From: an uncultured Muribaculaceae bacterium
GTDB taxonomy: Bacteria; Bacteroidota; Bacteroidia; Bacteroidales; Muribaculaceae
Length of the DNA stretch: 43,049 nt
Assembly (NCBI GenBank): GCA_947629175.1
Contig: CANRCT010000028.1
Coordinates: 1 to 43,049, forward strand
Direction of reading: 5' to 3'
Part shown: piece by piece, positions 24,421 through 41,849 of the stretch
Layout: each line of letters starts with the position of its first letter
How positions within the stretch are numbered: position 1 is the first letter of the stretch
Notes under the pieces: generated by a model
What the model was told of the DNA's origin: nothing
The model's input: the letters and a program-made list of their open reading frames with translations, nothing else
The model's database searches: none
Made by a program: the position numbers and the translations under genes

Positions 24421-25405
24421 ACAGCGTCGCCCCAAGGTGAGCGTGCTGATGATAGCCTACAATCAGGAGGCTTACATCGGCGAGGCTATAAGAGGCGTGG
24501 TGAGCCAGAAGGCGCCTTTCGCGTTCGAACTGATCGTCGCCGACGACGCGTCGACTGACTCCACGGCCGACGTGGCTTCGGCATGGGCTGACCGCTATCC
24601 CGATATCGTGAGGCTGTTGCGCCGTCCGAAAAATCTCGGACTGCAGGCCAACTATCTCGATGCTTATTCGCATGCCCGCGGAGAATACATAGCGATCTGC
24701 GAGGCCGACGACTGGTGGTGTTCGCGCCATAAGCTTGCGCGGCAGGCCCGGATGCTCGACGAGCATCCCGACTACGGATTATGCTTCCACCGCGTGATCA
24801 ACTACTATCAGACCGACGGGTCGATGTCGTTGAGCAATCCGCATCAGCCCCGAAGGATGGAACTTGATGATCTGGCGCGCGCAAATGTCATCACAAATCT
24901 GAGCGTGATGTATCGTGCTATCCCTTACGGTGAGTTGCCGCAATGGCTGTCATCAATCAGATTGTTTGACTATGCCATGCACTCGCTTCATGCCGGGCGA
25001 GGTCCAATCGGCTTCCTGCCTCATCCGATGGCGGTCTATCGCCGTCATGACCGGGGCATATGGAGCGGCGACCGCCGGCGTGGATGGCTGATGGCCATGG
25101 ATGTGCGCGAACGGCTGATCGGACATTTCCTCGACAGTCGGCGCAAGGCTGTCGGGAACTTTGCTGACGCTTATCTGGAGATAGCAGCCGCGCTGGAGGT
25201 CGATGGTGACGGGGATGCTCGCAGTCGTGCCCTGGCGTTTCTTGCCGATAAAGATATCCCGGTAAACGAGGATGACTTTGCGGCCCGGGTGGAGCGTCGA
25301 CGAATGAAGGCGTTGGCCAAGCAAGGATTACTCTCGGCGGTCAGGCGTCGGGTGAGCCGTCTGCTTCCGGCGCCCAGGATATGGTTTGGAGCCCGTCAGA
25401 TATAG
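24413..25405 (+). CDS. family 2 glycosyltransferase
   Basis: A 331-residue GT-A glycosyltransferase; the ATG at 24413 ('MTEQRRPKVSVLMIAYNQ') overlaps the end of lpdA by 8 bp. 'SVLMIAYNQEAYIGEAI', 'ELIVADDASTDSTADVA' and 'AICEADDWW' (with the metal-binding DD) are the usual GT2 motifs. No membrane segment is evident. It probably adds a sugar to a surface glycan or lipid; donor and acceptor are unknown. Being coupled to the glycine cleavage operon is odd, since no glycan genes are near. A strong hairpin follows it. Confidence 0.85.
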   Translation: MTEQRRPKVSVLMIAYNQEAYIGEAIRGVVSQKAPFAFELIVADDASTDSTADVASAWADRYPDIVRLLRRPKNLGLQANYLDAYSHARGEYIAICEADDWWCSRHKLARQARMLDEHPDYGLCFHRVINYYQTDGSMSLSNPHQPRRMELDDLARANVITNLSVMYRAIPYGELPQWLSSIRLFDYAMHSLHAGRGPIGFLPHPMAVYRRHDRGIWSGDRRRGWLMAMDVRERLIGHFLDSRRKAVGNFADAYLEIAAALEVDGDGDARSRALAFLADKDIPVNEDDFAARVERRRMKALAKQGLLSAVRRRVSRLLPAPRIWFGARQI

Positions 25406-25423
25406 GTCGACGGCCTTCATCCC

Positions 25424-25470
25424 TGTAAAAATACCGGGCGCTGCGTTCTTTGAAGGACACAGCGCCCGGT
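25424..25470 (-). terminator. strong hairpin terminator between the GT2 gene and rpiB
   Basis: ACCGGGCGCTG (25433-25443) pairs perfectly with CAGCGCCCGGT (25460-25470), and the inner GTTCTT/AAGGAC extends it. The T run is on the minus strand (complement of TAAAAAT at 25426-25432), so it mainly ends rpiB; the stem may also slow rightward transcription. Confidence 0.8.
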
Positions 25471-25531
25471 CGTCATACTAAAAAATGTGCGGTCAGTGCC
25501 CGTCGGGCAGCCTGCCTGCGGAAAAATACGT

Positions 25532-25990
25532 TTATTGAGCCACCGGTATCTTGGCTATGCGGCGGTCGTGGCGCCCTCCCTCGAATGGTTCGGCGATAAA
25601 TACGTCGAGCATCTCCAGGCCGAGCGACGGCTCGATGAAGCGGGCCGGAAGCACGAGCACGTTGGCATTGTTGTGCGCTCGGGCCAGGCGTGCGAGTTCG
25701 GGAGTCCAGCAGATGGCCGCACGGATGGCCTGATGCTTGTTGAGGGTCATGGCTATACCGTTGCCGGAGCCGCACATGGCTACTCCGAAAGCTGCCTGGT
25801 CGTCCTCTATGGCCTTGGCGCACGGATGGGCGAAGTCGGGGTAATCGCACGATGCTTCCGAATCGGTGCCGAAATCCTTCACTTCATATCCCAGATTGGT
25901 GAGACGCCGGATGATGGTCTGCTTCAACTGATAACCGGCGTGGTCGGAGCAAACGGCCACAACGGCCGGAGGTGTGGGGAGTTTTGTCAT
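25532..25990 (-). CDS. rpiB: ribose 5-phosphate isomerase B
   Basis: A 152-residue LacAB/RpiB family enzyme that interconverts ribose 5-phosphate and ribulose 5-phosphate in the pentose phosphate pathway. 'CSDHAGYQLK' near 14-23 binds phosphate, 'DYPDFAH' and 'GVAMCGSGNGIAMTLNK' (catalytic cysteine) follow, and 'RAAICWTPELARLARAHNNANVL' is the substrate-binding end. Single gene with its own promoter and terminator. It marks the last core gene before the accessory block. Confidence 0.95.
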   Translation of the reverse strand: MTKLPTPPAVVAVCSDHAGYQLKQTIIRRLTNLGYEVKDFGTDSEASCDYPDFAHPCAKAIEDDQAAFGVAMCGSGNGIAMTLNKHQAIRAAICWTPELARLARAHNNANVLVLPARFIEPSLGLEMLDVFIAEPFEGGRHDRRIAKIPVAQ

Positions 25991-26016
25991 TTTTGGTCAA
26001 TGATGATTATCTTCTG

Positions 26017-26047
26017 CAAAATTAGCCAAAATCGCCATTAGCCCCAA
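26017..26047 (-). promoter_or_regulatory. promoter for rpiB
   Basis: Minus strand: TTG (26045-26047), a 20-bp spacer, TAATTTTG (26017-26024), an exact TAnnTTTG match, 26 bp before the rpiB ATG. Confidence 0.7.
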
Positions 26048-26054
26048 TTTTTTG

Positions 26055-26300
26055 TCAGGAAAATAGCGTAAATCGTTTCGCGCAGGTTCGGCGTTGGTTC
26101 GGCTCAGGTTCGGCGTAAATCGTTTCGTCAGTATGAGAGATACGGGCGCCCATATGGGCAAGAAGTTCCTTGACCTGCGTTGCCTTCGCGCTTTCAGGAA
26201 TATAGAAATCCTGCAGGGGTGCCTATTCCGGCTTATAGGCTTCAGGTTTTCTCAATGATTTGAGTTGCTGTTTCTCGGAAAGAATGGGACTCGCTTGAAA
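26055..26300 (-). pseudogene. broken C-terminal gene fragment, possibly a transposase tail
   Basis: On the minus strand a frame runs from 26300 to a TGA at 26055-26057 and is cut by an in-frame TAG at 26223-26225. It reads 'PILSEKQQLKSLRKPEAYKP', then after the stop 'PLQDFYIPESAKATQVKELL' and 'AHMGARISHTDETIYAEPEP'. It has no start and stops abound upstream. The end contains a duplicated 15-mer (GCGTAAATCGTTTCG at 26066-26080 and 26113-26127) around two AGGTTCGGCG copies. The coding look and the setting among mobile debris suggest a transposase remnant, but I cannot name the family. Confidence 0.4.
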
Positions 26301-26394
26301 TTACAAGGGTTCTCATAGAGCCACTCAGGGAAACTAACAGTATTCTACGATGCAGTGTGTAGAACACGTTGCCGCTCAACGGATTGCAATTCTT

Positions 26395-26479
26395 CGGGTA
26401 CAAAAGCCCGGAAATGCTCCGTTTTTACCTTCTGAAAATCGCTTTTTCCGACCCTCTCGGGCCTGTGTTTTTGTACCCG
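26395..26479. repeat. 85-bp imperfect inverted repeat
   Basis: CGGGTACAAAA (26395-26405) is the exact inverse complement of TTTTGTACCCG (26469-26479). The pairing continues with GCCCGG/CGGGC after a small bulge. Read leftward it is the first sequence behind the promoter at 26480-26511, so it would form the 5' end of a folded transcript. It may be a leftover element end or a structured leader. Confidence 0.5.
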
Positions 26480-26511
26480 CAAAGATAGCTGTTTTAACTA
26501 ATATGTGCAAA
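26480..26511 (-). promoter_or_regulatory. orphan leftward promoter
   Basis: Minus strand: TTTG (26508-26511), a 20-bp spacer, TATCTTTG (26480-26487), a perfect match to the Bacteroidetes consensus. It points into the inverted repeat and the broken frame at 26055-26300, with no intact gene downstream before rpiB. Confidence 0.6.
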
Positions 26512-26535
26512 CGGCCGATACAAGGTCATTATCGA

Positions 26536-26619
26536 TTCGTTTGAAAAAGTGTAGCAATCCCTCGGTTGTTCGTTCGAAAAAGTGTAATGGAGGCATGGTT
26601 ATTCGGTCGAAAAAGTGTA
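26536..26619. repeat. three 18-bp direct repeats with exact 33-bp period
   Basis: TTCGTTTGAAAAAGTGTA (26536-26553), TTCGTTCGAAAAAGTGTA (26569-26586) and TTCGGTCGAAAAAGTGTA (26602-26619) start exactly 33 bp apart, about three helical turns, with unrelated 15-bp spacers. The layout resembles multiple transposase-binding sites at the end of an IS21-family element or an iteron/operator array. No istA/istB genes are present in the window, so it would be a remnant. Confidence 0.6.
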
Positions 26620-26667
26620 ACTCTTGTTCTACTCAATTGAAGAATCCAGGCCTTAAAAAGAATTTAA

Positions 26668-27186
26668 TCAATCCTCTGCGTATTCGTAGTAGATGTCCCA
26701 CAATGTATCCGGGAAGCCATATCCACAACATTCCACAGACTCAATCATCTTTTTCATGCGTGGCGAGTATTCGGGCATCAGTCCGTTGATAGATATGAAT
26801 TTGACCGCTTTGTTGAAATTGTTTTCAAGAGCGGTATAAAACGGATCGTCGTAATCGCCGTATTGTGCGGTCAGGCTGCATCCTTGTTCCACATAGTAGA
26901 GCATCAGGTCCGCAATGGCATGTGGGTCAGGTACAAGTTTCTTGAATGAGGTTATCAGTTTATTGCATTCTCTGAAACTCGGATCTTTAGGCCAGTCGTT
27001 ACGACCAAAGAACTGATTGCGGATTGTCTTCTTGTATTTTTCAAGCTGGGCATCGCTATTGGGTTCCATATAGAACTCAAGCCATGCGCTCGCTTCCTTG
27101 CTCGCATCGTATAACTGGAGCATTATATCGACTACCTGTTCTTTTGAAAGAGCCGACATATATTTTTTTAATTTTGCTTTTGACAT
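26668..27186 (-). CDS. DUF6155-like protein
   Basis: A 172-residue soluble, helix-rich protein, 'MSKAKLKKYMSALSKEQVVD' at the start. The overall pattern ('LKKY...LSKEQ...LY', 'WLEFYMEPN', 'FISINGLMPEYSPRMKKMI') fits the DUF6155 family as I remember it; no catalytic motif is visible and the function is unknown. It starts 21 bp behind hipT on the same strand and may be the fourth gene of that operon. DUF6155 genes are often seen in accessory regions, so the link with the toxin module may be incidental. Confidence 0.6.
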   Translation of the reverse strand: MSKAKLKKYMSALSKEQVVDIMLQLYDASKEASAWLEFYMEPNSDAQLEKYKKTIRNQFFGRNDWPKDPSFRECNKLITSFKKLVPDPHAIADLMLYYVEQGCSLTAQYGDYDDPFYTALENNFNKAVKFISINGLMPEYSPRMKKMIESVECCGYGFPDTLWDIYYEYAED

Positions 27187-27207: not shown

Positions 27208-28212
27208 TTATTCTGAAAATCTGTTGAAACGGTTTATTCGCTCGTTTACGATGCGGACATAATTGCGTTTCAGTTTGTCGGTGAGAAAACTATGGTCAAC
27301 AAGTCGCTTTGCACCTTCAGGGAAAGCGGTGTATTTGTTTAGGATTCTATCAATACGTTTTTTTACCAGGCCAATTTTGTCTCCGAATTTCTCAAAGTCG
27401 AGGCGGCATGGGTGTCCGGTTCTGTCGTAAACGTCGCTTTTTTCTATATCGTATGCCAGTCCACCGTCAAGGCCGAAGTCATCTCCATTAACATGCAGGC
27501 TGGTATTGATAAGATCGTAAGCAGGAGCCAGACGGTAATCCTGTCCTGTCAAAATCAACGAGAAATTCTTAAGGTGGTCATCGCCGTTAGCATAAATGTA
27601 ATTGAAAACCACCAGTTCAAAGAACCGCTCCATGTCAACCATCCATGCGGATACATTTGCCCTAATCGCCTTGGCAATATCCTCATAGCAACCGTTGTAT
27701 TTGAACTGAAGGCCGGCAGTCTGTTCATTCTTGCCTATTATCGAAGCGAAATCCTCCATTGGTAATTTTGACCCGTCGGGGAGGATGTCGAAACGGCGGG
27801 TAATATATACCGGCTGTCCTTTGGGCGTAAAACAAAGACCATTAGCCGCGGTCTGTATTCCGTAAATCTGTGAGGCAATCTGCATCGTAAGATGCTCGTT
27901 GGCAGGAATCATCTTGCGGTCACGAAGAGTCTTGTCCCACGGTGCAGGTTTCAATATATGTGTCGAACGCTCATTGTCGCCTGCTATATTGATTGCATCT
28001 GCATTTATAATAGCCGGGAATTTTTCCTGAACGCCGGAGACCGATATGCGGTGCATGGCATCCGCAATCTCGCCGACATTCCGGAACTCGTCAATGTCAA
28101 ATCCAAGTACCGGATTCACTTTTGTTTTACCAAATAGTAATTTGGCGGACTTCGGGCTATAAGTGTTAAATCCCTCTGCAAGAGAAGAAGGACAGTTCTT
28201 TATTTCAATCAT
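27208..28212 (-). CDS. hipT: HipT-like serine/threonine kinase toxin (HipA C-terminal)
   Basis: A 334-residue HipA-fold kinase that lacks the N-terminal HipN domain of classical HipA, as in the three-gene HipBST systems. The Gly-rich loop reads 'HRISVSGVQEKF', with S57 and S59, the positions I recall as autophosphorylated in E. coli O127 HipT. K88 ('HILKPA') fits the ATP-binding lysine. 'NGDDHLKNFS' (209-218) is the catalytic loop and 'APAYDL' with D233 the metal site. Known HipT phosphorylates tryptophanyl-tRNA synthetase; the target here is unknown. It overlaps hipS by 8 bp. Toxicity is inferred, not shown. Confidence 0.87.
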   Translation of the reverse strand: MIEIKNCPSSLAEGFNTYSPKSAKLLFGKTKVNPVLGFDIDEFRNVGEIADAMHRISVSGVQEKFPAIINADAINIAGDNERSTHILKPAPWDKTLRDRKMIPANEHLTMQIASQIYGIQTAANGLCFTPKGQPVYITRRFDILPDGSKLPMEDFASIIGKNEQTAGLQFKYNGCYEDIAKAIRANVSAWMVDMERFFELVVFNYIYANGDDHLKNFSLILTGQDYRLAPAYDLINTSLHVNGDDFGLDGGLAYDIEKSDVYDRTGHPCRLDFEKFGDKIGLVKKRIDRILNKYTAFPEGAKRLVDHSFLTDKLKRNYVRIVNERINRFNRFSE

Positions 28213-28534
28213 TGGTAATCCTCCTTACATTAACGGCTCCTATAAAATCTCTGTCGGCCATCGCTTCAAGCAGTCCGAAAAAATCCTGTTCATCAATTTT
28301 CAACGAGCGGCAAATCACACGGCGGTTTGCTCCCTCCGGAATCATATTAGAGAAGAAAGGGAACAAGTGCTCAGAATAAAAAGCATCTGTTCTTTTGGGT
28401 AGCGTCGCAGAAATCGGGGGCATGGGAGAGTCAAGATAATCTTTACAATATTGGAAAGAATATCCGATTCCCGGGTGCTTCTCCGTCAATATACCGGCTT
28501 TTATTTCATTGAAATATACCTCAAGCTGTTTCAT
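28205..28534 (-). CDS. hipS: HipS-like small HipN-domain protein (probable antitoxin)
   Basis: A 109-residue stand-alone HipN (couple_hipA) domain: 'LEVYFNEIKAGILTE', 'PISATLPKRTDAFYSEHLFP', 'FFSNMIPEGANRR'. In HipBST this piece, homologous to the HipA N-terminus, is a separate protein that neutralises HipT. I recall a tryptophan of E. coli HipS entering the kinase site; this protein has no tryptophan at all, so any such contact must use another residue. It overlaps hipB by 4 bp and hipT by 8 bp, which fits tight coupling of antitoxin and toxin. Confidence 0.83.
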   Translation of the reverse strand: MKQLEVYFNEIKAGILTEKHPGIGYSFQYCKDYLDSPMPPISATLPKRTDAFYSEHLFPFFSNMIPEGANRRVICRSLKIDEQDFFGLLEAMADRDFIGAVNVRRITND

Positions 28535-28731
28535 ACGGTCTGCCTTATGCGATATTCAATCTCAATGCCAAGAACATCAAGAATTTTCTTCACGGTGCTA
28601 AGTGCAGGATTACCCTTGCCACGCTCAATATCCTTGATTGTGGCAAGACCCACTTGCGACATTTCAGCAAGATCCTGTTGGGTGAGGGAAAGCGTTTCCC
28701 TACGCTGTTTCATTATATCCATCAGTTCCAT
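28531..28731 (-). CDS. hipB: HipB-like XRE-family regulator
   Basis: A 66-residue helix-turn-helix of the Cro/CI (XRE) type: 'RRETLSLTQQDLAEMSQVGL', then 'TIKDIERGKGNPALSTVKKI'. It is the first gene of the hipB-hipS-hipT operon and is expected to bind operators in its own promoter. Two identical-architecture 20-bp palindromes upstream are good candidates. The start at 28731 is the longest; Met4 and Met7 are possible alternatives. Confidence 0.88.
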   Translation of the reverse strand: MELMDIMKQRRETLSLTQQDLAEMSQVGLATIKDIERGKGNPALSTVKKILDVLGIEIEYRIRQTV

Positions 28732-28755: not shown

Positions 28756-28787
28756 CAAAAATAAGGAGAATTTCTGAAACTGCCAAA
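28756..28787 (-). promoter_or_regulatory. promoter of the hipBST operon
   Basis: Minus strand: TTTG (28784-28787), a 20-bp spacer, TATTTTTG (28756-28763). The proximal operator (28791-28810) begins 3 bp upstream of the -33 box, so HipB binding there should affect polymerase access. Confidence 0.7.
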
Positions 28788-28790
28788 CGA

Positions 28791-28810
28791 AAGTATAATA
28801 AATCATACTT
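28791..28810. promoter_or_regulatory. HipB operator candidate, proximal
   Basis: AAGTATAATAAATCATACTT, a 20-bp site with AAGTAT/ATACTT half sites and an 8-bp centre, next to the hipB -33 box. A second copy with the same design lies at 28852-28871. Confidence 0.65.
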
Positions 28811-28851
28811 TCGACCATTCTATTATAGTTGGTATTGAAATTGGTCGAATA

Positions 28852-28871
28852 AAGTATAGTATATCATACTT
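28852..28871. promoter_or_regulatory. HipB operator candidate, distal
   Basis: AAGTATAGTATATCATACTT, same half sites and centre length as the proximal site, starting 61 bp from it. It lies 21 bp upstream of the rightward promoter at 28893-28924, so it could couple both divergent units. Confidence 0.65.
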
Positions 28872-29268: not shown

Positions 29269-30306
29269 ATGATCAATTTCAAAAAGTACAGTTCCATCGA
29301 CAATGTCATCACACGCGACTTCATGGAGCGGGTCTGGGCAGAAATGCCGGCAGACCTTGAATGGGTAGTGCAAGAGAAGGTGCACGGTGCAAACACCAGT
29401 TTTCTCTGCGATGGCGAAGAAGTAAGATTCGCAAAGAGGACATCAGTGCTCTCCGGTGATGAAAATTTCTACGACTTCCTGTCATTGCTGGAGGCTTACA
29501 AGCCAAAAGTGCTGTCCCTGTTCAAGAGAATCCGCGCGACACATCCCGCAGTTACCGCCATCTCCGTGTTCGGCGAGATGTTTGGCGGACGTTATGCCCA
29601 TGAAGGGGTGCCCGCCGTCAAGGGGATGACCCTGATCCAGAAAGGAGTGAACTATACTCCAGTCCATGAGTTTTACGGGTTCGATATCTACCTCTTTGAG
29701 GGAGAGACAGGGTGCTATCTTTCGGTAGATGAGGTAAACTCTCTCTTCGAGGCCGAGGGCTTTTTCTATGCACGGACGCTGAAGAGAGGTTCACTTGCAG
29801 AATGCCTGAAATATCCCAACGCATTCCAGAGCAAAATCTCACAGTGGCTTGGCTTGCCTGACATCGACGACAACATCTGCGAGGGTGTCGTGATCCGTCC
29901 CGTCACGCCGCAGTATCTCAGGAATGGTTCCAGAGTACTGATAAAGAGCAAGAACGCCAGATTTGCCGAAAAGAAATCAGTAAAGACCCGCAACAAGCTC
30001 TTCACAGAACCAGTACCCTACAGCGACTCATTGAAGGCGATGCTTCCCGAGCTGGAGGCTTACGTCACCGAAAACAGGCTGAACAATGTTATCAGCCATA
30101 TCGGTGAGGTTACGCTTCCTAAGGATTTCGGGAAAATCATGGGTATGTTCTCAAAGGATATCCTTGAGGATTTTATGAAGGAGCATGGTGGTGCATACAC
30201 CGCTCTCGACAAGTGCGAGCAGAAATCACTCAACCGAGAGCTCAACAAGCTCGCCACCGGCTTCGTCAAGGAGATTCTACTCAGCAAAGCATATATAATT
30301 CCCTAA
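29269..30306 (+). CDS. Rnl2-type RNA ligase
   Basis: A 345-residue ATP-dependent nucleotidyltransferase. Motif I 'EKVHGAN' has the adenylated lysine K37, motif Ia 'AKRTS' R57, motif III region 'FGEMFGG' E103 and 'FYGFDIYL', motif IV 'EGVVIR' E205, and motif V 'LIKSKN' K226/K228. These sit at nearly the same positions as in T4 Rnl2. The C-terminal ~110 residues are helical, as in the Rnl2 C-domain. It should seal 3'-OH and 5'-phosphate RNA ends. Two metallophosphoesterase genes follow at once on the same strand, suggesting RNA end repair. No polynucleotide kinase is present. Confidence 0.88.
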   Translation: MINFKKYSSIDNVITRDFMERVWAEMPADLEWVVQEKVHGANTSFLCDGEEVRFAKRTSVLSGDENFYDFLSLLEAYKPKVLSLFKRIRATHPAVTAISVFGEMFGGRYAHEGVPAVKGMTLIQKGVNYTPVHEFYGFDIYLFEGETGCYLSVDEVNSLFEAEGFFYARTLKRGSLAECLKYPNAFQSKISQWLGLPDIDDNICEGVVIRPVTPQYLRNGSRVLIKSKNARFAEKKSVKTRNKLFTEPVPYSDSLKAMLPELEAYVTENRLNNVISHIGEVTLPKDFGKIMGMFSKDILEDFMKEHGGAYTALDKCEQKSLNRELNKLATGFVKEILLSKAYIIP

Positions 30307-32845: not shown

Positions 32846-33868
32846 TTATTCTATGTCCAATGGCAGGAGGTTGTCATCGTTGAAGCGGTCGAAATCGGAC
32901 TGAAAGAGCTTGTCCTGAATGACGCGATATTTCTCAAACTCAGTTTCAGCGTATTCTTTAGCTTGTTCGGCTGATACATGTCCGGCATCAGTCAGAACGG
33001 GACGGTCGGTAAGATCAAGAAACCTATCAATACGCTTAGCCCAGTCTTCCATTGTCATAGGAACATGACGCTTTGCCATATCTTCCGCCAAATCAAGAAA
33101 TGAGTTGACAATTCGTCCCATATCCTCCAGCTCACTCTCTTTGAGATAATTTTTGGCAATGATGACATCCGGCTTAACAATCTTCCCGTTGGGAGCATTT
33201 TCCCATGTTGTGAGACCCATATGCTCCTTTTCAGCATTAGCCCGGTCAATTATCAGTTCAGCCGCCGTATGACCATGAACAGCGTAGTGCATCTTATTCT
33301 GAACCTTCTTGAAGAATAGTCTTGTGGTAGGGGCATCTCTGTTGTAGTCGATGGCAGTAGCATAAATATCCGTCAGCTTCTGATAGAAACGTCGCTCGCT
33401 GAGGCGAATCTCTCGTATCTCAGCCAATAAATGCTCAAAATAGTCCTCGCCAATAAACGAACCGTTTTCCATCCTCTTCTTGTCGATCACATATCCGCGT
33501 ATGGCAAACTGACGCAAAACAAACGTACACCATTGCCTGAATTGTGTGGCTCGTGTACTGTTAACACGATACCCGACACTGATAATGGCATCGAGATTAT
33601 AGAAAGTCGTATTATAGTTCTTGCCATCTGAGGCAGTTGTTTCCATTTTGGAAATAACTGAATTTTCCGAAAGTTCTCCACTTTCGAAAATATTCTTTAG
33701 ATGCTTGCTAATGGCTGGAACTCCTACATCAAAAAGTTCTGCCATAGCTTTCTGCGTACACCAAACAGATTCGTTATGGTAGACTACCTGCACGCCATCT
33801 TCCTTCCCCTCAATCTGAAAGATCAGGAATTCCGCAGTGCTGTTTAGTATTTCAAACTTCTTCGGCAT
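32846..33868 (-). CDS. RhuM family protein
   Basis: A 340-residue protein of the RhuM family: 'VWCTQKAMAELFDVGVPAIS', 'NTTFYNLDAIISVGYRVNS' and 'FRQWCTFVLRQFAIRGYVID' are its signature, and the second half is helical ('TTRLFFKKVQNKMHYAVHGH'). I chose the ATG at 33868; a GTG at 33877 would add three residues. RhuM was first noted on a Salmonella pathogenicity island and is widespread in mobile and defence-rich regions; its function is unknown. The N-terminal part looks like a DNA-binding module related to phage Bro/KilA-type proteins. It follows the VbhA-like ORF by 24 bp. Confidence 0.88.
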   Translation of the reverse strand: MPKKFEILNSTAEFLIFQIEGKEDGVQVVYHNESVWCTQKAMAELFDVGVPAISKHLKNIFESGELSENSVISKMETTASDGKNYNTTFYNLDAIISVGYRVNSTRATQFRQWCTFVLRQFAIRGYVIDKKRMENGSFIGEDYFEHLLAEIREIRLSERRFYQKLTDIYATAIDYNRDAPTTRLFFKKVQNKMHYAVHGHTAAELIIDRANAEKEHMGLTTWENAPNGKIVKPDVIIAKNYLKESELEDMGRIVNSFLDLAEDMAKRHVPMTMEDWAKRIDRFLDLTDRPVLTDAGHVSAEQAKEYAETEFEKYRVIQDKLFQSDFDRFNDDNLLPLDIE

Positions 33869-33892
33869 AATGGTCACAAATCAGTAAAAACG

Positions 33893-34092: not shown

Positions 34093-36228
34093 TCATATTT
34101 CTTCCATGCCGAGGCTTTTGAAGTAGCGGTAGGTGCAATCATAAAACGACGGCAAACGAGTAGAGTCTTCAGGAAAACCTTCCGGAGTTGTATGTCCGTT
34201 GCCTTCGGGGACACATATCACCATTCCCTGACGGGCACGTGTCAGCAGCACACGATACGCATTCAGCATATATTTTTGCACTTCAAGATTTCTTTCTGGC
34301 CTCCATTCAGTCCGGCCGTTGAATTTCCAGAACGTCCATTCGCCATTTTCATAACGCATGTCTGCATCCCAAAGCACACAGGAGAAATCTACTTCAAGTC
34401 CTTGCACCTGTATTTCGGTAGCCGCTTCCTCAAGATAATTCGATGACCTTACGTCAGTTTTATCCTCAAGAAACCAGTGCACGGCATTGTCTTCGTCTTG
34501 TGGAAGCACATGCACGGCTAAAGGCTTGAATCGGGCTGAAGCTTTTGAAATAAGGATACCTGTTTGCTGAGAACCACGAGCTTGTTGCCTAAGCCACTGT
34601 CGGGCTTTATTCATGTCGCGAGTGAGCATTATTGGATATCCGTGACTAACAACATCCTTATATAAATCAACAGCATCGGAGTTGAACGATAGCAGGGAAT
34701 GAACAAATGCTGATAATCGTTCTGCTCTGAAAGAACGAAGACTTACGCCGAGATGGAGTTTATCTGAAAATACAACATTCTGGTTGTATTCAAGTAGTTC
34801 GTTAACTTTTCCTTCAGCATATTCAGGTTCAGTCAATTTGTTGGAAATATAAACATTCCAATGGGGAAAGTGCTCATTGAGTGCTATAATCCATTCGGAA
34901 ATACCGGCTTCTCCTGTATTTATTTCTTGTCCACCTCCTATAAGGCATATAATAGTAGCCCAATCTTCTCTTTGGTCGAGCGACCAGATAAGAAATGCAG
35001 CTTCTGACATAGGGAAGTTGGGAACCTTAAGCTTGTTTCCGTATGTACCACCTCGTTTTAGATAGTCAGCAATTCGTTTGTGGGTCCAGGCTCGTTGTGC
35101 TTCATCAAATATCGCGACATGTTCAACTTCTCCATATCCACTTTGCTGAAGTTTAACGGCTTTATCGGGATCGATTTCGAGTTTGCCGTCTACTACCGGG
35201 TTCTTGATCTTAGCAAGCATATTATCTCTATATCGGTGGATAATCTGGATGAACTTACTAACCTCCCGGCGCGAATCCGAAAGCTTTTTACTTTCGCCAT
35301 TTTCTTTCGATTTCCTATAGTCGTCACGCGCAAGAGCTTCTGTCAAAACGGCTACAAGAGGGCCATTGCCTGAAAGGTAAACGGCGCCGTCATCCTCATT
35401 GAATGTCCCGTCATCCTGATAAGATTGTTTGACAGCTACATCAAGACCGACTAACGTTTTTCCCGCGCCGGGGACACCGGTAACAAAACAAATACTCTTC
35501 TCACCCTTTTTCTTCGAACGATTTATTACTGCAAGAATATATGCGATAGTGGCGTCGGTAGTTACTTTATCTGCCTCGTGTCTGGTTATGTCCTCTACTG
35601 AATGATTTTCGTATAGAGAACGCGCAGCTTCGATAATCGTAGGCGTGGGAGTATACGGACTGATAATCCAGTCTTTTATAGTGCCTAGCTGATTTGCATT
35701 TTCATGACTAAGCACTTCGAAAATAATCTCATGGAGACCAGCCTCTCCTGTGATAAGAGGATTGTAAATTGAATCATCATATACCGACGCAGTAAACAGC
35801 CTCGACGAAGTTTCGTGCTTGGTAGGTATTAAAACCGGGACAATAATGCGATCATGGCTAAAGCGATGAAAATTCTTTAGATCAAGCGCATAGTCCATCA
35901 CTTGTTCTACGTCTGACTGCAGAGCATCCTTCTGCCCCACTTTGAATTCAAGGCAGAAAATGATTCCTCTCAAAAGTAAAACGCCATCTATGCGTTTACC
36001 GAGACGCGGTATATCATATTCAAATATAATATCAGCTTCTTCTTCCTTCCATGGTAAAAGAACATCTTGCAGCAGGTGGATTTCTCCTAACCAAGCCTCG
36101 TCAGTCGTAGTCAACGTTTGTCCATGAAACGCATCGTGAATGCGTCCCAGAACTGAATACGGATCGGATTCAATGAAAGATTTGAAATCCGATTTATATA
36201 GACATCTATTTGTCGGTTTAATGGCCAT
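34093..36228 (-). CDS. PD-(D/E)XK nuclease-DUF2075 helicase-like protein
   Basis: A 711-residue protein. Residues ~60-130 look like a PD-(D/E)XK nuclease core: D81 in 'GKRIDGVLLL' and E94-x-K96 in 'IFCLEFKVGQ'. Residues ~245-700 are a superfamily 1 helicase-like ATPase of the DUF2075 (Schlafen group 3-like) type: Walker A 'GVPGAGKT' 251-258, Walker B 'VAIFDEAQRAW' with D375-E376, 'LIGGGQEINTGEAG', and motif VI 'RVLLTRARQGM'. Nuclease-helicase fusions of this kind are frequent in anti-phage and mobile-element conflict systems; such a role here is inference. First gene of a leftward operon with the VbhA-like ORF, rhuM and an alcohol dehydrogenase. Confidence 0.85.
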   Translation of the reverse strand: MAIKPTNRCLYKSDFKSFIESDPYSVLGRIHDAFHGQTLTTTDEAWLGEIHLLQDVLLPWKEEEADIIFEYDIPRLGKRIDGVLLLRGIIFCLEFKVGQKDALQSDVEQVMDYALDLKNFHRFSHDRIIVPVLIPTKHETSSRLFTASVYDDSIYNPLITGEAGLHEIIFEVLSHENANQLGTIKDWIISPYTPTPTIIEAARSLYENHSVEDITRHEADKVTTDATIAYILAVINRSKKKGEKSICFVTGVPGAGKTLVGLDVAVKQSYQDDGTFNEDDGAVYLSGNGPLVAVLTEALARDDYRKSKENGESKKLSDSRREVSKFIQIIHRYRDNMLAKIKNPVVDGKLEIDPDKAVKLQQSGYGEVEHVAIFDEAQRAWTHKRIADYLKRGGTYGNKLKVPNFPMSEAAFLIWSLDQREDWATIICLIGGGQEINTGEAGISEWIIALNEHFPHWNVYISNKLTEPEYAEGKVNELLEYNQNVVFSDKLHLGVSLRSFRAERLSAFVHSLLSFNSDAVDLYKDVVSHGYPIMLTRDMNKARQWLRQQARGSQQTGILISKASARFKPLAVHVLPQDEDNAVHWFLEDKTDVRSSNYLEEAATEIQVQGLEVDFSCVLWDADMRYENGEWTFWKFNGRTEWRPERNLEVQKYMLNAYRVLLTRARQGMVICVPEGNGHTTPEGFPEDSTRLPSFYDCTYRYFKSLGMEEI

Positions 36229-36252
36229 TGAAGATTTGGATATTCTTATTTA

Positions 36253-36282
36253 CAAATTTAGCTATAAACCCTGACATGGCAA
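36253..36282 (-). promoter_or_regulatory. promoter of the DUF2075-RhuM operon
   Basis: Minus strand: TTG (36280-36282), a 19-bp spacer, TAAATTTG (36253-36260), an exact TAnnTTTG match, 24 bp before the ATG. Confidence 0.65.
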
Positions 36283-36301
36283 TGAAACATGCTGAGAAAC
36301 A

Positions 36302-36341
36302 TAAAACGCCCCGGCAAGAAGGAGAGTCTTATCGGGGCGTT
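36302..36341 (-). terminator. terminator for the leftward mobilization region
   Basis: AACGCCCC (36305-36312) pairs with GGGGCGTT (36334-36341). On the minus strand the stem is followed by TTTTAT. It closes transcription coming from the pseudogene and mobilization genes to the right. Confidence 0.7.
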
Positions 36342-36375
36342 GGTCAAAGGGTTATGGGCGTATTAGCGGATGGAA

Positions 36376-36884
36376 TCAGAGGCGGATGCAGGCGATGCGG
36401 CAGCCGGGCATTTGTCCGGTGATGAGGGGCTGGCTGTCTTCGTCGGCGAAGTGGAGGACCGCGAAGCATAGGCGATGGCTTGTCCGAGCCAACCCGTGAG
36501 TCTTGGCGGTCTGTTTCAGCCAGTGGATGAAGTGTTGGCTCGGTCCAGCCTCGCCGCTGCTACGCGGTCATCTCGGCATGGATGACATCCTGTGTGCCTC
36601 GGATGCTGATGCGGATGATTATGAGCGTCATGTCGGGAATTCCGAGATGGCCTTCGGAGCGCTCCCCACAGGCGGAACTGGATGGTGCGGTCCTCGCCGA
36701 AGTAGTGGATGCAGGCTCCGACGGAGTTCCAGTCGAGAGTGGCATCATCGGGGTCGCTGCCGAATACTTCTGTGATATATGCGCGGAAGTCGAGGAAGAA
36801 GTCCACGATGGCGTCGCGGGTTGTGGATTTGATTTCTTGCATGTGTGGTGCGGGTGTTAAAGGGTTAAACAAGCGATTTTGCAT
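36376..36884 (-). pseudogene. frameshifted paralog of the 139-aa gene at 36857-37276
   Basis: Three frames together rebuild a protein like its intact neighbour. Frame 1: 'LDWNSVGACIHYFGEDRTIQ', 'FRLWG' (to about 36670). Frame 2: 'SEGHLGIPDMTLIIIRISIR' to 'IHAEMTA' (stop near 36560). Frame 3: 'EAGPSQHFIHWLKQTAKTHG' to 'TGQMPGCRIACIRL' with a TGA at 36376-36378. The neighbour reads 'LDWNCVGATARYHGQNRAFE', 'HFGIPDMTVIV' and 'VPGCKIACLTL' at the same places. Two frameshifts therefore break the copy. A start at 36884 overlaps the paralog's end; Met at 36842 ('MQEIKSTTRD') is the alternative. The function is unknown. Confidence 0.7.
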
Positions 36885-37276
36885 CCGGGTACCTGATTTG
36901 GTGCGTCCGTGGGGGCGTGGCTCTCGTCGGCGATGTGGCGGAATCCGTTAGCTTTTGCCGCATCGCGTAGCCATAAAGATACGGCATCGGCTTCTGCCTG
37001 AGGTTTCGCCGCGAGCCAGGAGATGTGGAACACGGAAACGATGACGGTCATGTCTGGTATTCCGAAATGTCCGTCAGAATGTTCCCACAGGCGGAACTCG
37101 AATGCTCGGTTCTGTCCGTGGTAACGAGCTGTTGCACCGACGCAGTTCCAGTCGAGCATGAGCTGGTCGGTAGTTGCTGAATAGTTCTCTACCATGAATT
37201 CGCAGAAGTCATAGTAGAAGGCCTTGATACTCATCTGAGCACCTGCCGAGATGGGATTGAAAGAATTTGATTGCAT
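36857..37276 (-). CDS. conserved accessory protein of unknown function
   Basis: A 139-residue protein, 'MQSNSFNPISAGAQMSIKAF' at the start; a longer reading would begin at 37336. I do not recognise the family. It has no signal or membrane segment. A tandem, frameshifted copy lies directly downstream, so the gene was duplicated. The shared core is 'LDWN.VGA...Y.G..R...FRLW' followed by 'GIPDMT', and both copies end in 'PGC.IAC'. It belongs to the leftward run behind the relaxase and is likely cargo or an accessory gene of the mobilizable element. Confidence 0.65.
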   Translation of the reverse strand: MQSNSFNPISAGAQMSIKAFYYDFCEFMVENYSATTDQLMLDWNCVGATARYHGQNRAFEFRLWEHSDGHFGIPDMTVIVSVFHISWLAAKPQAEADAVSLWLRDAAKANGFRHIADESHAPTDAPNQVPGCKIACLTL

Positions 37277-37302
37277 TGTTTGTTGAGTTTGAGGTTTGTG
37301 AA

Positions 37303-38088
37303 TTACCAGAGTAGATTGCCTGATTCCGGTGTCCATGAGTCGGAGGGTCGGAAATAGACGTGGGTACGCTCGGCGCGTTTGCGGCGTTCATGTCGGATGG
37401 TCATTGCCTTTATGCTGTCCTGTTCCTGACGGGTTCCGACCATCATTGCCTCTTCGCGGAGCATCATGTTGCGGATGCCTTCGGTGTCATAGCTAACGCG
37501 CTCGTAACGGTAGAGCCATTCGACTTTCTGGAGGTGCTCGTTCTCTTTATAGAGATTGTAGCACCAGATGCCAAGACCGACAGCGATAAGCAATAAGGCT
37601 CCCGCAACGGCATAAACCCATTTGGGAATTGCCGCCCAGATAGCGCCGTTGACGATGCTATACATCCGGTCTGTGAGTCGCTTTGCGGATTCATTGAGTC
37701 CGTTAATCTGGCTTGTGAACTCATTCCGGATACCGATATGAAGGGCCTTAGCGACGTTCTTGTCAAGTCCGTCCTTGAAGGCTTGGACGAAGGCTTCTGC
37801 TATTTCCTTCGGGAACTGAGAGAAGTCGAGACTTTTGAGTGCATCGACTTTTTGTTTGACGAATGCTGCATCAACGAGCTTTTTCACTGACTCGTTGGTG
37901 GCGATGTTCTCGGGCAGCTCCACTTGGATTTTCTCCGGGATTGCCGATGCCGACGGTTCCGTCTGCACAGGCTCGGATACCAGTCTGGTGTCAATTCCTG
38001 TAAGTATATCCTTATTCTCTTTCGCGATTTTGAGAAGGTCGTCAATCTTCTCGTCTTGTTTCTTGACGAGTGAGTATAAATCTGCCAT
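37303..38088 (-). CDS. coiled-coil membrane protein downstream of the relaxase
   Basis: A 261-residue protein with an N-terminal coiled-coil stretch (about 1-35, 'LVKKQDEKIDDLLKIAKENK'), a helical middle, one membrane segment at about 158-178 ('WVYAVAGALLLIAVGLGIWC') and a charged C-terminal tail rich in R and E. The start codon shares one base with the relaxase stop (TAATG), so the two are translated together. Genes in this place in Bacteroides mobilization regions often help couple the relaxosome to a transfer channel; that role is inference. Confidence 0.7.
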   Translation of the reverse strand: MADLYSLVKKQDEKIDDLLKIAKENKDILTGIDTRLVSEPVQTEPSASAIPEKIQVELPENIATNESVKKLVDAAFVKQKVDALKSLDFSQFPKEIAEAFVQAFKDGLDKNVAKALHIGIRNEFTSQINGLNESAKRLTDRMYSIVNGAIWAAIPKWVYAVAGALLLIAVGLGIWCYNLYKENEHLQKVEWLYRYERVSYDTEGIRNMMLREEAMMVGTRQEQDSIKAMTIRHERRKRAERTHVYFRPSDSWTPESGNLLW

Positions 38089-39035
38089 TACAGTGATCTT
38101 CCTTTTTTCTTTTTGGGTTTCTTTTTCATTCTGTTGATAAAGGATTGTTCCTCGGGGTCATAGCCGGGCCCGACTTGGAACAGTCCGCCGATAGCCTGAC
38201 ATCCGGTTTCGATTATGTTCTCCACGACGTTCGCCACCGGAGCCTCCTTGACCTTTGCCATTACCGAAATCGGTGCCGATTGCTGAGGCTGTGTCTCTTT
38301 TATTCCGGCATTCTTGGCAAAGAATTTATCAAGACGCTTGTAGGAAAAAGCGCGGTCAATCTTCGAGCCGTTGAAGGTGAATTCGTCGTCGGAGAAGCGT
38401 ATGCCCTGCGGTTTGCCTGTGTCGCGGTCGTTGTAAAATTCGACTGTTATACCAGCCGGAGCGAGGCGACGGCGGAACTCGTCCCACGATTTGCAGCGGT
38501 ACATCGCCGCCTGAATCTTAGGCTTCATCTCGGCAATAGCATCCTCATACAGCCTCTTTTTCGGCGAAATAGTCAATCCGTATTTCAGTTTGATAGCCTT
38601 GGTCGCATCACGGCTTTTGTCAAAATTTTTACTTTCGTCAATGGCTTTACCGTGGAGATTGACGCGATTATAGACGATATGAAAGTGCGGAGAGCCGGTT
38701 TCGAGATGACGCACAATCATATATTGCGTGTCCCGAATGCCCATACATTCCATATATTCTTTAGCCAGCTGCACCATAAACTCATCGGTGAGACGGGGCA
38801 AATCTGCCCTGTCGAAACTCACGGCGATATGTCCGATGGGCTTGCTGATTCTCTTGTTGAGACTCGCCCCGATGTCGAAACTGTCCACAATTCGGCGGTA
38901 ATCGTTGCCGAGAATCCCGTCGGAATCTATCACTCGCCAAGTATCGTCGGTGAACTGTTCCTTGTCGTGAAACTCACGCATAACATAGCCGACAATATCG
39001 GCTGCGGCTCCTTTTGCGAGTATTTTTGCTATCAT
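38088..39035 (-). CDS. MobA-type relaxase / mobilization nuclease
   Basis: A 315-residue relaxase. The start 'MIAKILAKGAAADIVGYV' at 39035 overlaps the mobC stop (ATGA); a longer frame begins at 39125. The relaxase core includes Y17, a candidate nicking tyrosine, and the three-histidine metal motif 'VRHLETGSPHFHIVYNRV' (H110, H117, H119). It should nick the oriT strand, bind its 5' end and lead it during conjugal mobilization. The region after ~130 is a C-terminal extension typical of Bacteroides mobilizable elements. No type IV secretion genes are seen, so transfer would need a helper. Confidence 0.9.
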   Translation of the reverse strand: MIAKILAKGAAADIVGYVMREFHDKEQFTDDTWRVIDSDGILGNDYRRIVDSFDIGASLNKRISKPIGHIAVSFDRADLPRLTDEFMVQLAKEYMECMGIRDTQYMIVRHLETGSPHFHIVYNRVNLHGKAIDESKNFDKSRDATKAIKLKYGLTISPKKRLYEDAIAEMKPKIQAAMYRCKSWDEFRRRLAPAGITVEFYNDRDTGKPQGIRFSDDEFTFNGSKIDRAFSYKRLDKFFAKNAGIKETQPQQSAPISVMAKVKEAPVANVVENIIETGCQAIGGLFQVGPGYDPEEQSFINRMKKKPKKKKGRSL

Positions 39036-39418
39036 AACAGAGAGGAATTTGATGTTTTCAACTTGCCGAGAGTGGCTAAAATTCCATCGAGACAAGCCTC
39101 GGCTTTTCGCTTTGTCGAGGGCCATGCGTTAGCCTGACACGCCTTGACTTGAGCGTTTAGATTCTTGCCTTGATACATCAGTTCGCGTATTGCTTCACGT
39201 TCAAAATCGGTGAGACGACCGACAACCGAGAGCCGGAAGGCTGCGATTCTAAGCAGTTCGGCAATGCTGACACCAGCGGCTGCGGCCTTGGCTTTCACCT
39301 CACGCTCTTCCGCATCGGTAAAATTCACAGAGACTTTTCGGTCTCTCTTATCACTGTATTCCTTCTTTGGTCGCCCGCGGAGTTTCACACCGGGAGCGTC
39401 CTGATTGAACTTTCTCAT
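39032..39418 (-). CDS. mobC: MobC-like relaxosome accessory protein
   Basis: A 128-residue protein with a ribbon-helix-helix part (about 25-65, 'RDRKVSVNFTDAEEREVKAK') and a MobC-type C-terminus ('LTDFEREAIRELMYQGKNLN'). MobC binds near oriT and helps the relaxase open the nick site. It is the first gene of the mobC-relaxase-membrane protein operon. Directly upstream lies a region of nested inverted repeats that is the likely oriT. The stop overlaps the relaxase start by four bases. Confidence 0.88.
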   Translation of the reverse strand: MRKFNQDAPGVKLRGRPKKEYSDKRDRKVSVNFTDAEEREVKAKAAAAGVSIAELLRIAAFRLSVVGRLTDFEREAIRELMYQGKNLNAQVKACQANAWPSTKRKAEACLDGILATLGKLKTSNSSLL

Positions 39419-39425
39419 TCGTTGG

Positions 39426-39528
39426 GTTGGGGATGGTGCCCGCAGGGAACAGAGAGCGTCCTATGGGATGCGAGGGGGTTCGGGTTGGGAATTTTTTACC
39501 TCCCGAAACATACCCTTGCATCCCCAAC
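39426..39528. other. candidate origin of transfer (oriT), nested inverted repeats
   Basis: Just upstream of mobC. Outer pair GTTGGGGATG (39426-39435) and CATCCCCAAC (39519-39528), exact. A second pair GGGATGCGAGGG (39465-39476) and CCCTTGCATCCC (39513-39524), one wobble, competes with or extends the outer pair. An inner pair TTCGGG (39479-39484) and CCCGAA (39502-39507) surrounds a T-rich loop. Position and design fit an oriT, but the nick site is not identified. Confidence 0.55.
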
Positions 39529-39547
39529 TAATCCACTATCGTTTCTT

Positions 39548-40444
39548 AGAGGGTGTTTCATAACAACCGTTAAGAATCCCCATCAAAAATGCCTCTGCTA
39601 AAGGAGAGGGCATTTCTAAATTGTTTATTTGTTGACAATTAAAAGAAAGGATTTAGAAATGTACACCTCTGATTTAACAGAAGCACAGAAAGCTTTCATA
39701 AAAGAAACAATTCCAATGGATAATTGGACGAGCAAACATGATTTTTTTCTTGTCTTTGATGCGGTTTTATACGTGGACAAGACCGGCTGTCAATGGCGTA
39801 ATCTTCCACATGACTTCCCGGCATGGCAGACCGTATATTACTATTTCCGTGTATGGAGTGCCATCGGCGAATTCAAGGAGTTGCTTGACAGCCTTGTCGC
39901 ACAAGTGCGATTTCAGGAAGGTCAGGCTCCGGAACCAAGTGTCGCGGTTGTCGATGCCCAAAGTGTGCGGGCTGCCTCATATCCCTCACCGAAAGGTTTT
40001 GACGGCAACAAGAAAGTCAAGGGAATAAAACGGCAGATTGCAGTTGACAAGAACGGACATCTACTTGATGTCAAGACAACTACCGCTAACATACATGACT
40101 CCAAAGGCGGTCTGATGCTTCTGGCTTTACTTGCTGCCTCGCATCCGGCCATCAAGAAGATTCTTGCAGACAGAGGCTATCGCGGAGATTTGATTGAACT
40201 TGTGAGAAATGCTTTTGGTATGAACGTGGAAATCACTTTGTCGGGTTCTTCTGACGGAAAGTTCATTCCCGCAAAAGGCAGATGGGTAGCGGAGCGTTCT
40301 ATCTCTTGGCTTGACAACTTCCGACGATTATGCAGAAATTATGAGGATACATTGGAGGTCGCACGACAGATGGTTATCATTGCAGGAATGGCAATGCTCT
40401 TGAACAGGCTTCCTGCAAATTAACAATCGTTATGAAACACCCTC
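39548..40444 (+). mobile_element. IS5-family insertion sequence, complete, 897 bp
   Basis: The ends match as inverted repeats: GAGGGTGTTTCATAAC at 39548 and its complement ending at 40444, with similarity for about 25 bp (positions 39548-39572 and 40420-40444). A TTA target duplication flanks it (39545-39547 and 40445-40447). One transposase gene fills the inside. Intact ends, an intact gene and a clear duplication indicate a recent insertion. It entered the last codons of the helix-turn-helix gene on the minus strand. Confidence 0.9.
39659..40423 (+). CDS. IS5-family transposase
   Basis: A 254-residue DDE transposase starting 'MYTSDLTEAQKAFIKETIP'; a TTG at 39629 would add ten residues. The N-terminus carries the usual IS5-group domain ('DKTGCQWRNLPHDFPAWQTV'). 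Catalytic residues: D in 'VAVVDAQSVR', D in 'ILADRGYRGD', and E in 'RWVAERSISWLDNFRRLCRN' (the Y-(2)-R-(3)-E-(6)-K type box). Its stop lies inside the right inverted repeat. It appears intact and should be active. Confidence 0.93.
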   Translation: MYTSDLTEAQKAFIKETIPMDNWTSKHDFFLVFDAVLYVDKTGCQWRNLPHDFPAWQTVYYYFRVWSAIGEFKELLDSLVAQVRFQEGQAPEPSVAVVDAQSVRAASYPSPKGFDGNKKVKGIKRQIAVDKNGHLLDVKTTTANIHDSKGGLMLLALLAASHPAIKKILADRGYRGDLIELVRNAFGMNVEITLSGSSDGKFIPAKGRWVAERSISWLDNFRRLCRNYEDTLEVARQMVIIAGMAMLLNRLPAN

Positions 40445-40803
40445 TTAGGCTTTCGTTTTACTGAGCCTGTCATCATCTGGGTTATTTCCTCCAGACTCAT
40501 CTTGCTTATTCGGCGGCTGTCTTCAACCCATTTAATGAGTTCGGATCGTCGGAACAGCAACTCTTTGGCGGGCTTATAATGTGGGATGAGACCTTTCTGG
40601 GCCAGCTTGTAGATAGTCGGCTTCTTCAGATGGACTACCTCACAGGCAGTTTCAAGGTCTATGAAGCCTTCGGCCGGTATCATTTTGGATTGACTCTGGA
40701 GCCTTTTGGACATACTCGTGAGTTCCTTGGTCATGTAGGACATCTGTTCCATCATTTCCGCGAGCATTTTAGGCATTGTATCGAACGAGGGTGTATTCTC
40801 CAT
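40420..40803 (-). CDS. helix-turn-helix protein with its C-terminus rewritten by the IS
   Basis: A 127-residue protein. Residues ~10-40 form a coiled coil ('MLAEMMEQMSYMTKELTSMS'), and ~45-92 an excisionase/HTH_17-type winged helix ('DLETACEVVHLKKPTIYKLA', 'YKPAKELLFRRSELIKWV'). The last residues 'VFHNDC' come from the right inverted repeat of the IS. Joining 40448 back to the sequence left of the IS with one TTA restores an ending '...KRKPKKR' and stop, so only the tip has changed and the protein may still work. Such proteins regulate excision or mobilization in Bacteroides elements. Confidence 0.8.
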   Translation of the reverse strand: MENTPSFDTMPKMLAEMMEQMSYMTKELTSMSKRLQSQSKMIPAEGFIDLETACEVVHLKKPTIYKLAQKGLIPHYKPAKELLFRRSELIKWVEDSRRISKMSLEEITQMMTGSVKRKPKRVFHNDC

Positions 40804-40851
40804 ATTATTCTAATTTTCAGACTTGATTGCGGTTGGAATTTACTGTTTATT

Positions 40852-41538
40852 TTAGAAGCGGGTAGCCGGAAATACATGAGGGATGAGAGGTTGGTCAAGC
40901 GGTATGAGCTTGAGAGTGAAAGACCCTTCTTTGATAGCCAGTTTTGTCTGGATGGTGTCAACGGCAACCTCTGAAAACATTAACTTGAAGGTATCCTTAA
41001 GGAACCAGGCTATCTGTATATTGGATCTTTTGAGACGTTTTCCGATATTCCAGCCGAAATGATACAGGTCATTGGAGGTCACGCCATCCAATTTAACTGT
41101 AATATCATCTGACACATCTTTACCTTTGGCAAGCTGCTGAATATTGTTACAGAGCGTTTGAATCTGAGCCTCAGTCAGATGTTTATCGAATGTGAGGGAT
41201 GAATATGAAAGAATATCATCCATGATGCCGGATTCGGTATTTGAATCGGTTCCTATAAGGAAGTCAGTTTGCTGTCTGTCGCTTTCCTCGTCACTTGATT
41301 TGCATGCAATGTGTGCAACGTATAATTTGGGGACAATATAGTATGCAGATATGAGATATATCAGATATCCTGTGCCGCATACAAGTGATAATACGAATAT
41401 CGTATGAAAGACAGCAAGGAAAATATCGGAAGTTTCCGTTATCATTCGTGTATAATCGGAAACACCGATGCCAAGCGCCGACATCGTTACAACGGTGAGA
41501 TATGCTCTTGTCCAAGGGGATTTATAAGGGGCTTTCAT
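40852..41538 (-). CDS. two-helix membrane protein of unknown function
   Basis: A 228-residue protein from the ATG at 41538 ('MKAPYKSPWTRAYLTVV'); a TTG at 41562 would add eight residues. Two hydrophobic helices at about 11-30 and 38-66 ('VFHTIFVLSLVCGTGYLIYL') are followed by a ~150-residue cytoplasmic or periplasmic domain with 'LTFDKHLTEAQIQTLCNNIQ'. I do not recognise the family. It lies between the integrase and the helix-turn-helix gene of the mobilizable element, on the same strand. Confidence 0.6.
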   Translation of the reverse strand: MKAPYKSPWTRAYLTVVTMSALGIGVSDYTRMITETSDIFLAVFHTIFVLSLVCGTGYLIYLISAYYIVPKLYVAHIACKSSDEESDRQQTDFLIGTDSNTESGIMDDILSYSSLTFDKHLTEAQIQTLCNNIQQLAKGKDVSDDITVKLDGVTSNDLYHFGWNIGKRLKRSNIQIAWFLKDTFKLMFSEVAVDTIQTKLAIKEGSFTLKLIPLDQPLIPHVFPATRF

Positions 41539-41692
41539 CTTTACGATATGTATTAATTTCAATTATGAGTTCGTTATTTTCTAATAGAATAACGCATGAG
41601 AAATGCCCTGAAAATCAATGTTATGATTTGTTATAAAGTGCGTCAGAATTTATATTTCCGTCCATTTCGGCTGAATGGAAATCCATCGTGAA

Positions 41693-41715
41693 CTCAATTC
41701 AAAAATTGAATTGAG
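41693..41715. repeat. perfect palindrome in the integrase-side noncoding strip
   Basis: CTCAATTCAA (41693-41702) and TTGAATTGAG (41706-41715) with a 3-base centre. It stands in a ~310-bp AT-rich strip without genes between the integrase end and the membrane protein gene. It could be a regulator or integrase-accessory binding site; nothing else in the strip is identified apart from the terminator. Confidence 0.45.
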
Positions 41716-41799
41716 CCCATGACTGAAATTCTATTGAACCGAAATCTTTCAAGTTCTGACATTTACAAATACTGAGATATATTAGGCATATTTAACGCA

Positions 41800-41825
41800 C
41801 AAAAGGACACCCCGAAGGGCATCCT
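41800..41825 (-). terminator. terminator of the right-hand integrase gene
   Basis: On the minus strand AGGATGCCC and GGGTGTCCT pair around a TTCG tetraloop (41804-41825), followed by TTTT. It starts 24 bp after the integrase stop. Confidence 0.85.
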
Positions 41826-41849
41826 TTCAACAAGAGGTACAAATAAGGA

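Follow-up and report, generated by a model that had tools for sequence, protein, structure and literature searches.

The tripartite HipBST system is established (PMC6581861, PMC10627512, PMC10653801, PMC9325769, PMC9438503), and in the published accounts of E. coli, H. influenzae and Legionella the antitoxin is HipS, not HipB. In E. coli, the W65A change in HipS is reported to abolish neutralization (PMC10627512). Legionella HipS has I65 and M66 at this site, where M66A is described as merely weakening neutralization, and the P-loop is reported to be ejected in both the E. coli and the Legionella HipBST complexes, the Legionella HipS being without this tryptophan (PMC10653801, PMC9325769). By published structure, E. 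coli combines an S-x-S P-loop with the tryptophan and Legionella has neither; published reports on the toxicity of E. coli HipT S57A conflict. Legionella-type HipBST is described as widespread across the FCB superphylum, including Bacteroidota (PMC10653801). As far as these accounts extend, HipBST experiments are apparently limited to a few Gammaproteobacteria. A literature search whose scope excluded most subscription papers turned up no paper with experiments on HipBST from Bacteroidales, and the main text of PMC8262856 makes no mention of "Bacteroid-".

Here we describe a locus on a 43,049-nucleotide contig of an uncultured Muribaculaceae bacterium (CANRCT010000028.1), the whole of which is referred to as the window. 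Its sequence points, with a probability of roughly three in four, to a type II toxin-antitoxin operon of the HipBST type, which an integrative mobilizable element of a Bacteroidales genome carries as cargo.

Results

Gene content and structural models

The open reading frames of the window place hipB, hipS and hipT in a one-strand, three-gene operon at 27208-28731, all on the reverse (-) strand. The hipB gene (28531-28731) encodes a 66-aa XRE/Cro-type regulator (HTH_3, 5.7e-15) whose match to TIGR03070 (9.2e-18, 64 bits) lies below the family cut-off of 71.65. The hipS gene (28205-28534) encodes a 109-aa stand-alone HipA N-subdomain-1, the presumed antitoxin (Couple_hipA PF13657, 1.6e-20), and hipT (27208-28212) a HipA-type Ser/Thr kinase of 334 aa, presumed to be the toxin (HipA_C PF07804, 8.6e-42). 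hipB and hipS overlap by 4 bp (28531-28534), and hipS and hipT by 8 bp (28205-28212). An earlier note on this DNA had proposed three genes of these lengths, order and overlaps within a Bacteroidales accessory island, and the reading frames and domain profiles agree; its text correctly ran the kinase down to 27208, and the coordinates that it gave for the module, 28205-28731, span hipB and hipS only. The N-domain and the kinase lie on separate reading frames, and the one-chain arrangement of HipBA is thus absent from the window. Judged by its sequence, the locus is a HipBST-type module; the kind is familiar, and the branch to which it belongs is apparently untested.

In sequence searches against solved structures, HipT matched HipT(Lp) best (1.3e-27, 100 bits), with a further match to E. 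coli O127 HipT (3.9e-15, 59 bits) and a weak one to E. coli HipA (2.4e-4, 23.5 bits). HipS matched HipS(Lp) at 3.5e-14, HI_0666 at 7.9e-10, E. coli HipS at 1.7e-7 and HipA at 8e-5. AlphaFold models were built from the window protein with 46 named relatives for HipT (47 sequences; pLDDT 80.9) and with 51 named relatives for HipS (pLDDT 91.0). The best Foldseek matches were 7wcf for HipT (3.7e-21, TMq 0.77) and 7vkb_B for HipS (6.4e-10, TMq 0.85). The structural comparison with E. coli HipBST called for earlier, made on single-chain models, bore out the likeness, with TMq 0.83 for HipS (7ab3_E) and 0.76 for HipT (7ab5_F), the latter versus 0.61 for HipA (2wiu_C). HipBST proteins ranked at the top for both chains, above HipA, the one exception being HI_0666 (7czo), which came 18th for HipS.

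HipT is without N-subdomain-1 and retains the P-loop, catalytic and Mg-binding motifs. Its Gly-rich loop, I56-S57-V-S59-G-V-Q-E-K64 (28021-28047, reverse strand), has serine at 57 and 59, and residues 53-60 are modelled with low confidence (pLDDT <50). The presumed catalytic Asp211 in NGDDHLKN (27580-27582, reverse strand), which aligns with E. coli HipT residue 210, and the presumed Mg-binding Asp233 in APAYDLI (27514-27516, reverse strand) are both invariant in the 47 sequences. S57, S59 and D233 had been pointed out before as falling at the E. coli HipT residue numbers, and those numbers are the ones in the published accounts (PMC6581861, PMC10627512). Also as previously remarked, HipS contains no tryptophan over its 109 aa. 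In the stretch E67-G68-A69-N70-R71 (28322-28336, reverse strand), Ala69 aligns with E. coli Trp65, and Ala69-Asn70 stand at the start of helix 68-78 of the AlphaFold model. As Ala69 occupies the place of Trp65, the window HipS is unable to use a Trp wedge.

Relatives in the order and two lineages

HipT relatives (E <= 1e-10) were present in 105 of the 295 genomes of the order that were searched. Among named genomes that were scanned, 79 HipT loci were recovered, 43-96% identical, mostly with Bacteroidales titles; L074, L077, L110 and L111 bear Clostridia or Bacillota names, and all four are metagenome assemblies. With copies of the window or of the genome's second locus left out (L001-L005), 170 loci, these two included, yielded 173 HipT frames; the loci are not independent, L035-L037 for example being near-identical. 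A separate adjacent HipS frame accompanies 160 of the 173 frames and both HipS and HipB accompany 153, and no fused HipS-HipT gene was found among the 173 frames of the 170 loci. The 13 frames without HipS comprise eight cut by contig ends, the two pieces in L112, one in L113 and two in L166. Broken HipT copies were also seen, with the frame in pieces in L112 (5932-6575) and stops within the match in G177:C171, G169:C170 and G220:C11.

The genome itself carries a second hipBST locus (L114, contig C58, 4579-6087), with PEGW in HipS and T-V-T for S-V-S in HipT. Relatives were assigned to type A by a best BLAST score to the window HipT and to type B by a best score to this second HipT, which makes the second locus type B. 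Motifs were counted on 158 of the 160 S-T pairs, leaving out L107, cut by a contig end, and L130, with a stop inside the matched stretch. Among the 121 type A pairs, the lineage of the window, S-x-S occurs in 119 (the others have one S-x-P and one C-x-S). The Trp at HipS 65 that marks the E. coli type is absent from the window and from all 121, the position being held by Ala in 63, Val in 15, Ser in 14, Thr in 9 and other residues in 20. The wedge site of type A reads E-G-x-N-[RK], with E and G in 121/121, N in 119/121 and R or K in 120/121. The 37 type B pairs have no S-x-S, have Trp at the W65 position in 33, and show L or Q where type A has N. A Trp-free HipS is not a trait of the whole lineage, because 39 of the 121 type A rows have Trp elsewhere in the HipS frame. 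Thinning to <72% identity left 36 type A pairs (35 S-x-S, 0 Trp) and 26 type B pairs (0 S-x-S, 22 Trp). In type A, hipS and hipT overlap (by 1 bp or more) in 102/121 pairs, including 46 with a 4-bp and 33 with an 8-bp overlap. A distinct type A subgroup, L132-L138, reads MGFSISGVQRK or AGFSISGVQPK, with Glu or Phe at the wedge site and two Trp at other places in HipS. Three relatives from viral contigs (L188-L190) were compared by motif only; two have type A motifs and the third has S-x-Q with Pro at the site.

In the tree, type B groups with the E. coli fragment (96/91), whose branch is long (3.11). Bacteroidales rows with a Legionella-like S-x-Q stand next to that fragment (94/76, not starred), in the other lineage than the window. 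Type A forms one side of a weakly supported branch (86/45 with the E. coli fragment and 47 without; not starred), and the idea of type A as a proven clade was dropped on these values. The outgroup consisted of full-length HipA rows, a distant sort among which E. coli HipA was not included; no Legionella sequence was in the tree, and the Legionella affinity is a pairwise best match only. Fisher's test on raw counts associates S-x-S with the absence of Trp (6e-30). Despite this value, functional coupling of the two traits was dropped, because each changed only about twice on the tree, where the two independent pairs are too few for a test; the co-distribution is a clade marker. The type A and type B motifs are thus clade markers of about one split and no proof of a new mechanism. 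As E. coli has both features, Legionella neither, type A S-x-S only and type B Trp only, all four combinations exist.

Promoter and candidate operator

A Bacteroidales-type promoter lies upstream of hipB (28756-28787, reverse strand), composed of TTTG at 28784-28787, a 20-bp spacing and TATTTTTG at 28756-28763, the TTTG partner having been read by eye. The pattern TAnnTTTG, which we take to be the Bacteroidales -7 element, occurs 45-25 bp before hipB in 26/27 close relatives (shuffled mean 0.8), 56/77 other type A loci and 26/30 type B loci. A proximal 26-bp palindrome, CGAAAGTATGATTTATTATACTTTCG (28788-28813, reverse strand), the presumed HipB operator, abuts the TTTG partner, and a distal palindromic copy, AGTATGATATACTATACT (28853-28870, reverse strand), is also found in L035. 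AGTAT-N6-10-ATACT occurs upstream of hipB in 11/27 close relatives (shuffled mean 0.05), 3/77 other type A loci and 0/30 type B loci.

Mobile element and neighbouring genes

GC content drops from ~0.59-0.62 (21-26 kb) to 0.40-0.44 (26-29 kb) and is 0.43-0.51 further on (29-36 kb). The low-GC stretch holds genes for RNA ligase 2, two metallophosphoesterases and RhuM together with mobilization genes, and at 34093-42953 are an SLFN-g3 helicase, a MobA/VirD2 relaxase, a NikA-like protein, an IS4/5-family transposase, HTH_17 and a tyrosine integrase. This stretch, which carries hipBST, is an integrative mobilizable element, in keeping with the accessory island proposed earlier. No attachment repeat was found between 25401-26700 and 42801-43049, where the longest exact match is 11 bp. 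HipT relatives were present in 564/72,556 plasmid records (best Segatella copri, 62%), in 0/50,697 phage records and at 3 loci of a viral-contig collection.

The RhuM-family protein (32846-33877) strongly matches the PADLOC candidate defence family PDC-S05. A T4 Rnl2-type RNA ligase (29269-30306) is divergent from hipB; L036, which has the RhuM-to-DUF6155 stretch in common with the window and an integrase-like ORF downstream (by eye), has no RNA ligase match and has an unrelated 376-aa ORF at the same place. A DUF6155 gene (26668-27186) follows hipT by 21 bp on the same strand and was rejected as a fourth core gene, being near hipT in just 6/79 named loci, of which three are near-identical and one has the gene 630 bp away. 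A calcineurin-like metallophosphoesterase is found close to both hipBST loci of the genome (30381-31166, and 6374-7207 of L114; 64% identical). It occurs at 6/79 named loci, but on the HipT-match contig in no other of the 295 genomes, and as a partner phosphatase it is unsupported beyond close relatives.

Discussion

In the toxin-antitoxin operon that we favour, the HipT kinase, with a putative toxicity and a putative target, would stop growth. HipS would dock at the site where HipA's own N-subdomain-1 sits and would probably keep the Gly-rich loop ejected and unable to bind ATP without a Trp wedge; such ejection is expected because Legionella, likewise without the Trp, ejects its P-loop. HipB may act as repressor of the operon at the palindromes flanking and adjoining the promoter; it would also enter the complex. 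Four observations count against this proposal: Ala69 is the same change as W65A, reported to inactivate E. coli HipS (PMC10627512); the tree places the E. coli fragment with type B and not with the window's type A; 16/27 close relatives are without the exact palindrome pattern; and the P-loop has a pLDDT <50 in the model. The earlier note had reasoned that a HipS without Trp should block the kinase in a manner unlike E. coli. This holds in so far as Ala69 allows no Trp wedge; the step to a new mechanism was overstated, because a Trp-less HipS with P-loop ejection and its spread in Bacteroidota are, by published accounts, already in print (PMC10653801, PMC9325769). That N70 and R71 of HipS do the work is a guess. 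On a bolder reading, the window would belong to a third lineage of HipBST that inhibits its kinase by a chemistry of its own, in which N70-R71, the near-invariant Asn-Arg/Lys at the HipS helix start, and not Trp, would engage the Gly-rich loop, perhaps doubly phosphorylated at S57-x-S59, with the kinase's autophosphorylation state serving as the readout of HipS binding. We consider this unlikely; if true, a single cell would operate two HipBST switches, each locked in a different way.

The same three genes could also be a split HipBA, in which HipS and HipT would jointly form the active kinase like the two parts of HipA, and HipB would be the real antitoxin. HipS indeed scores strongly on general HipA N-domain models (PF13657; TIGR03071, 5e-26), and is without the Trp wedge as is E. 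coli HipA at the same place in the alignment. However, HipT is closer to HipT proteins (100 and 59 bits) than to HipA (23.5 bits), Foldseek agrees, and HipS rather than HipB is reported to neutralize in three tested tripartite systems, including Trp-less Legionella, which makes a split HipBA improbable. Far less probable still is a recently frameshifted or decayed hipA that is tripartite in appearance only. Such decay would fit the short overlaps (4 and 8 bp), which are out of frame, and the broken copies in L112, G177, G169 and G220, yet the catalytic residues are invariant, full-length HipA matches are distant (42-49 bits), and the S-T overlap is kept in most type A pairs. A frameshifted two-gene HipAB in relatives, the outcome that the earlier note had named as telling against itself, is refuted as far as the 173 HipT frames of the 170 loci extend: none is fused, and 160 have a separate HipS.

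The alternative that seems most open to us, possible rather than probable and compatible with the toxin-antitoxin proposal, is that the same parts serve as a phage-defence or element-maintenance device and not as a growth switch. The operon lies beside RhuM, with its PDC-S05 match, the SLFN-g3 helicase and the RNA ligase within a mobilizable element, and a Shewanella genomic island is reported to be stabilized by a HipAB pair (PMC8978831). Against this, the neighbours are not kept with the module (DUF6155 and the metallophosphoesterase MPE1 each in 6/79 named loci), and HipS and HipT themselves have no more than weak, partial PADLOC matches.

Comparison with known systems

Among known systems, the HipBST of Legionella pneumophila (Lpg2368-2370; 7vkb, 7vkc, 7wcf, 8ezr) has the same B-S-T genes, is the nearest match to HipS and to HipT in sequence as in fold and, like the window, has no Trp at the wedge position; it differs in having one P-loop serine (S54, MSVQG) versus S57-V-S59, and I65/M66 in HipS versus A69/N70. 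E. coli O127:H6 HipBST (7ab3-7ab5) shares the gene order, the S-x-S P-loop numbers 57/59 and D233, but its HipS needs Trp65 where the window has Ala69, and its HipT is ~22% identical to the window HipT in the fold alignment. Haemophilus influenzae HI_0666 (HipA-N, 7czo) is described as a stand-alone N-domain antitoxin with HipB as helper (PMC9438503), and in the alignment it has Trp, in PEGW, whereas the window HipS has none. HipBA of E. coli K-12 and Shewanella oneidensis shares the kinase and N-domain folds and an HTH regulator with the window, but is a single chain with HipB as antitoxin. Type B HipBST, in L114 and other Bacteroidales, has the gene order, split and overlaps of the window; the L114 HipT is ~31% identical to the window HipT, and type B P-loops read [TAS]-x-[TP] or S-x-Q. 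The double serine and the Trp wedge occur together in E. coli but apart in the Bacteroidales, and this set thus offers natural material on what HipS needs for P-loop ejection. The addition over prior work is the window's lineage with S-x-S and no Trp, together with a second lineage with Trp and no S-x-S, one HipBST of each being carried by the same genome.
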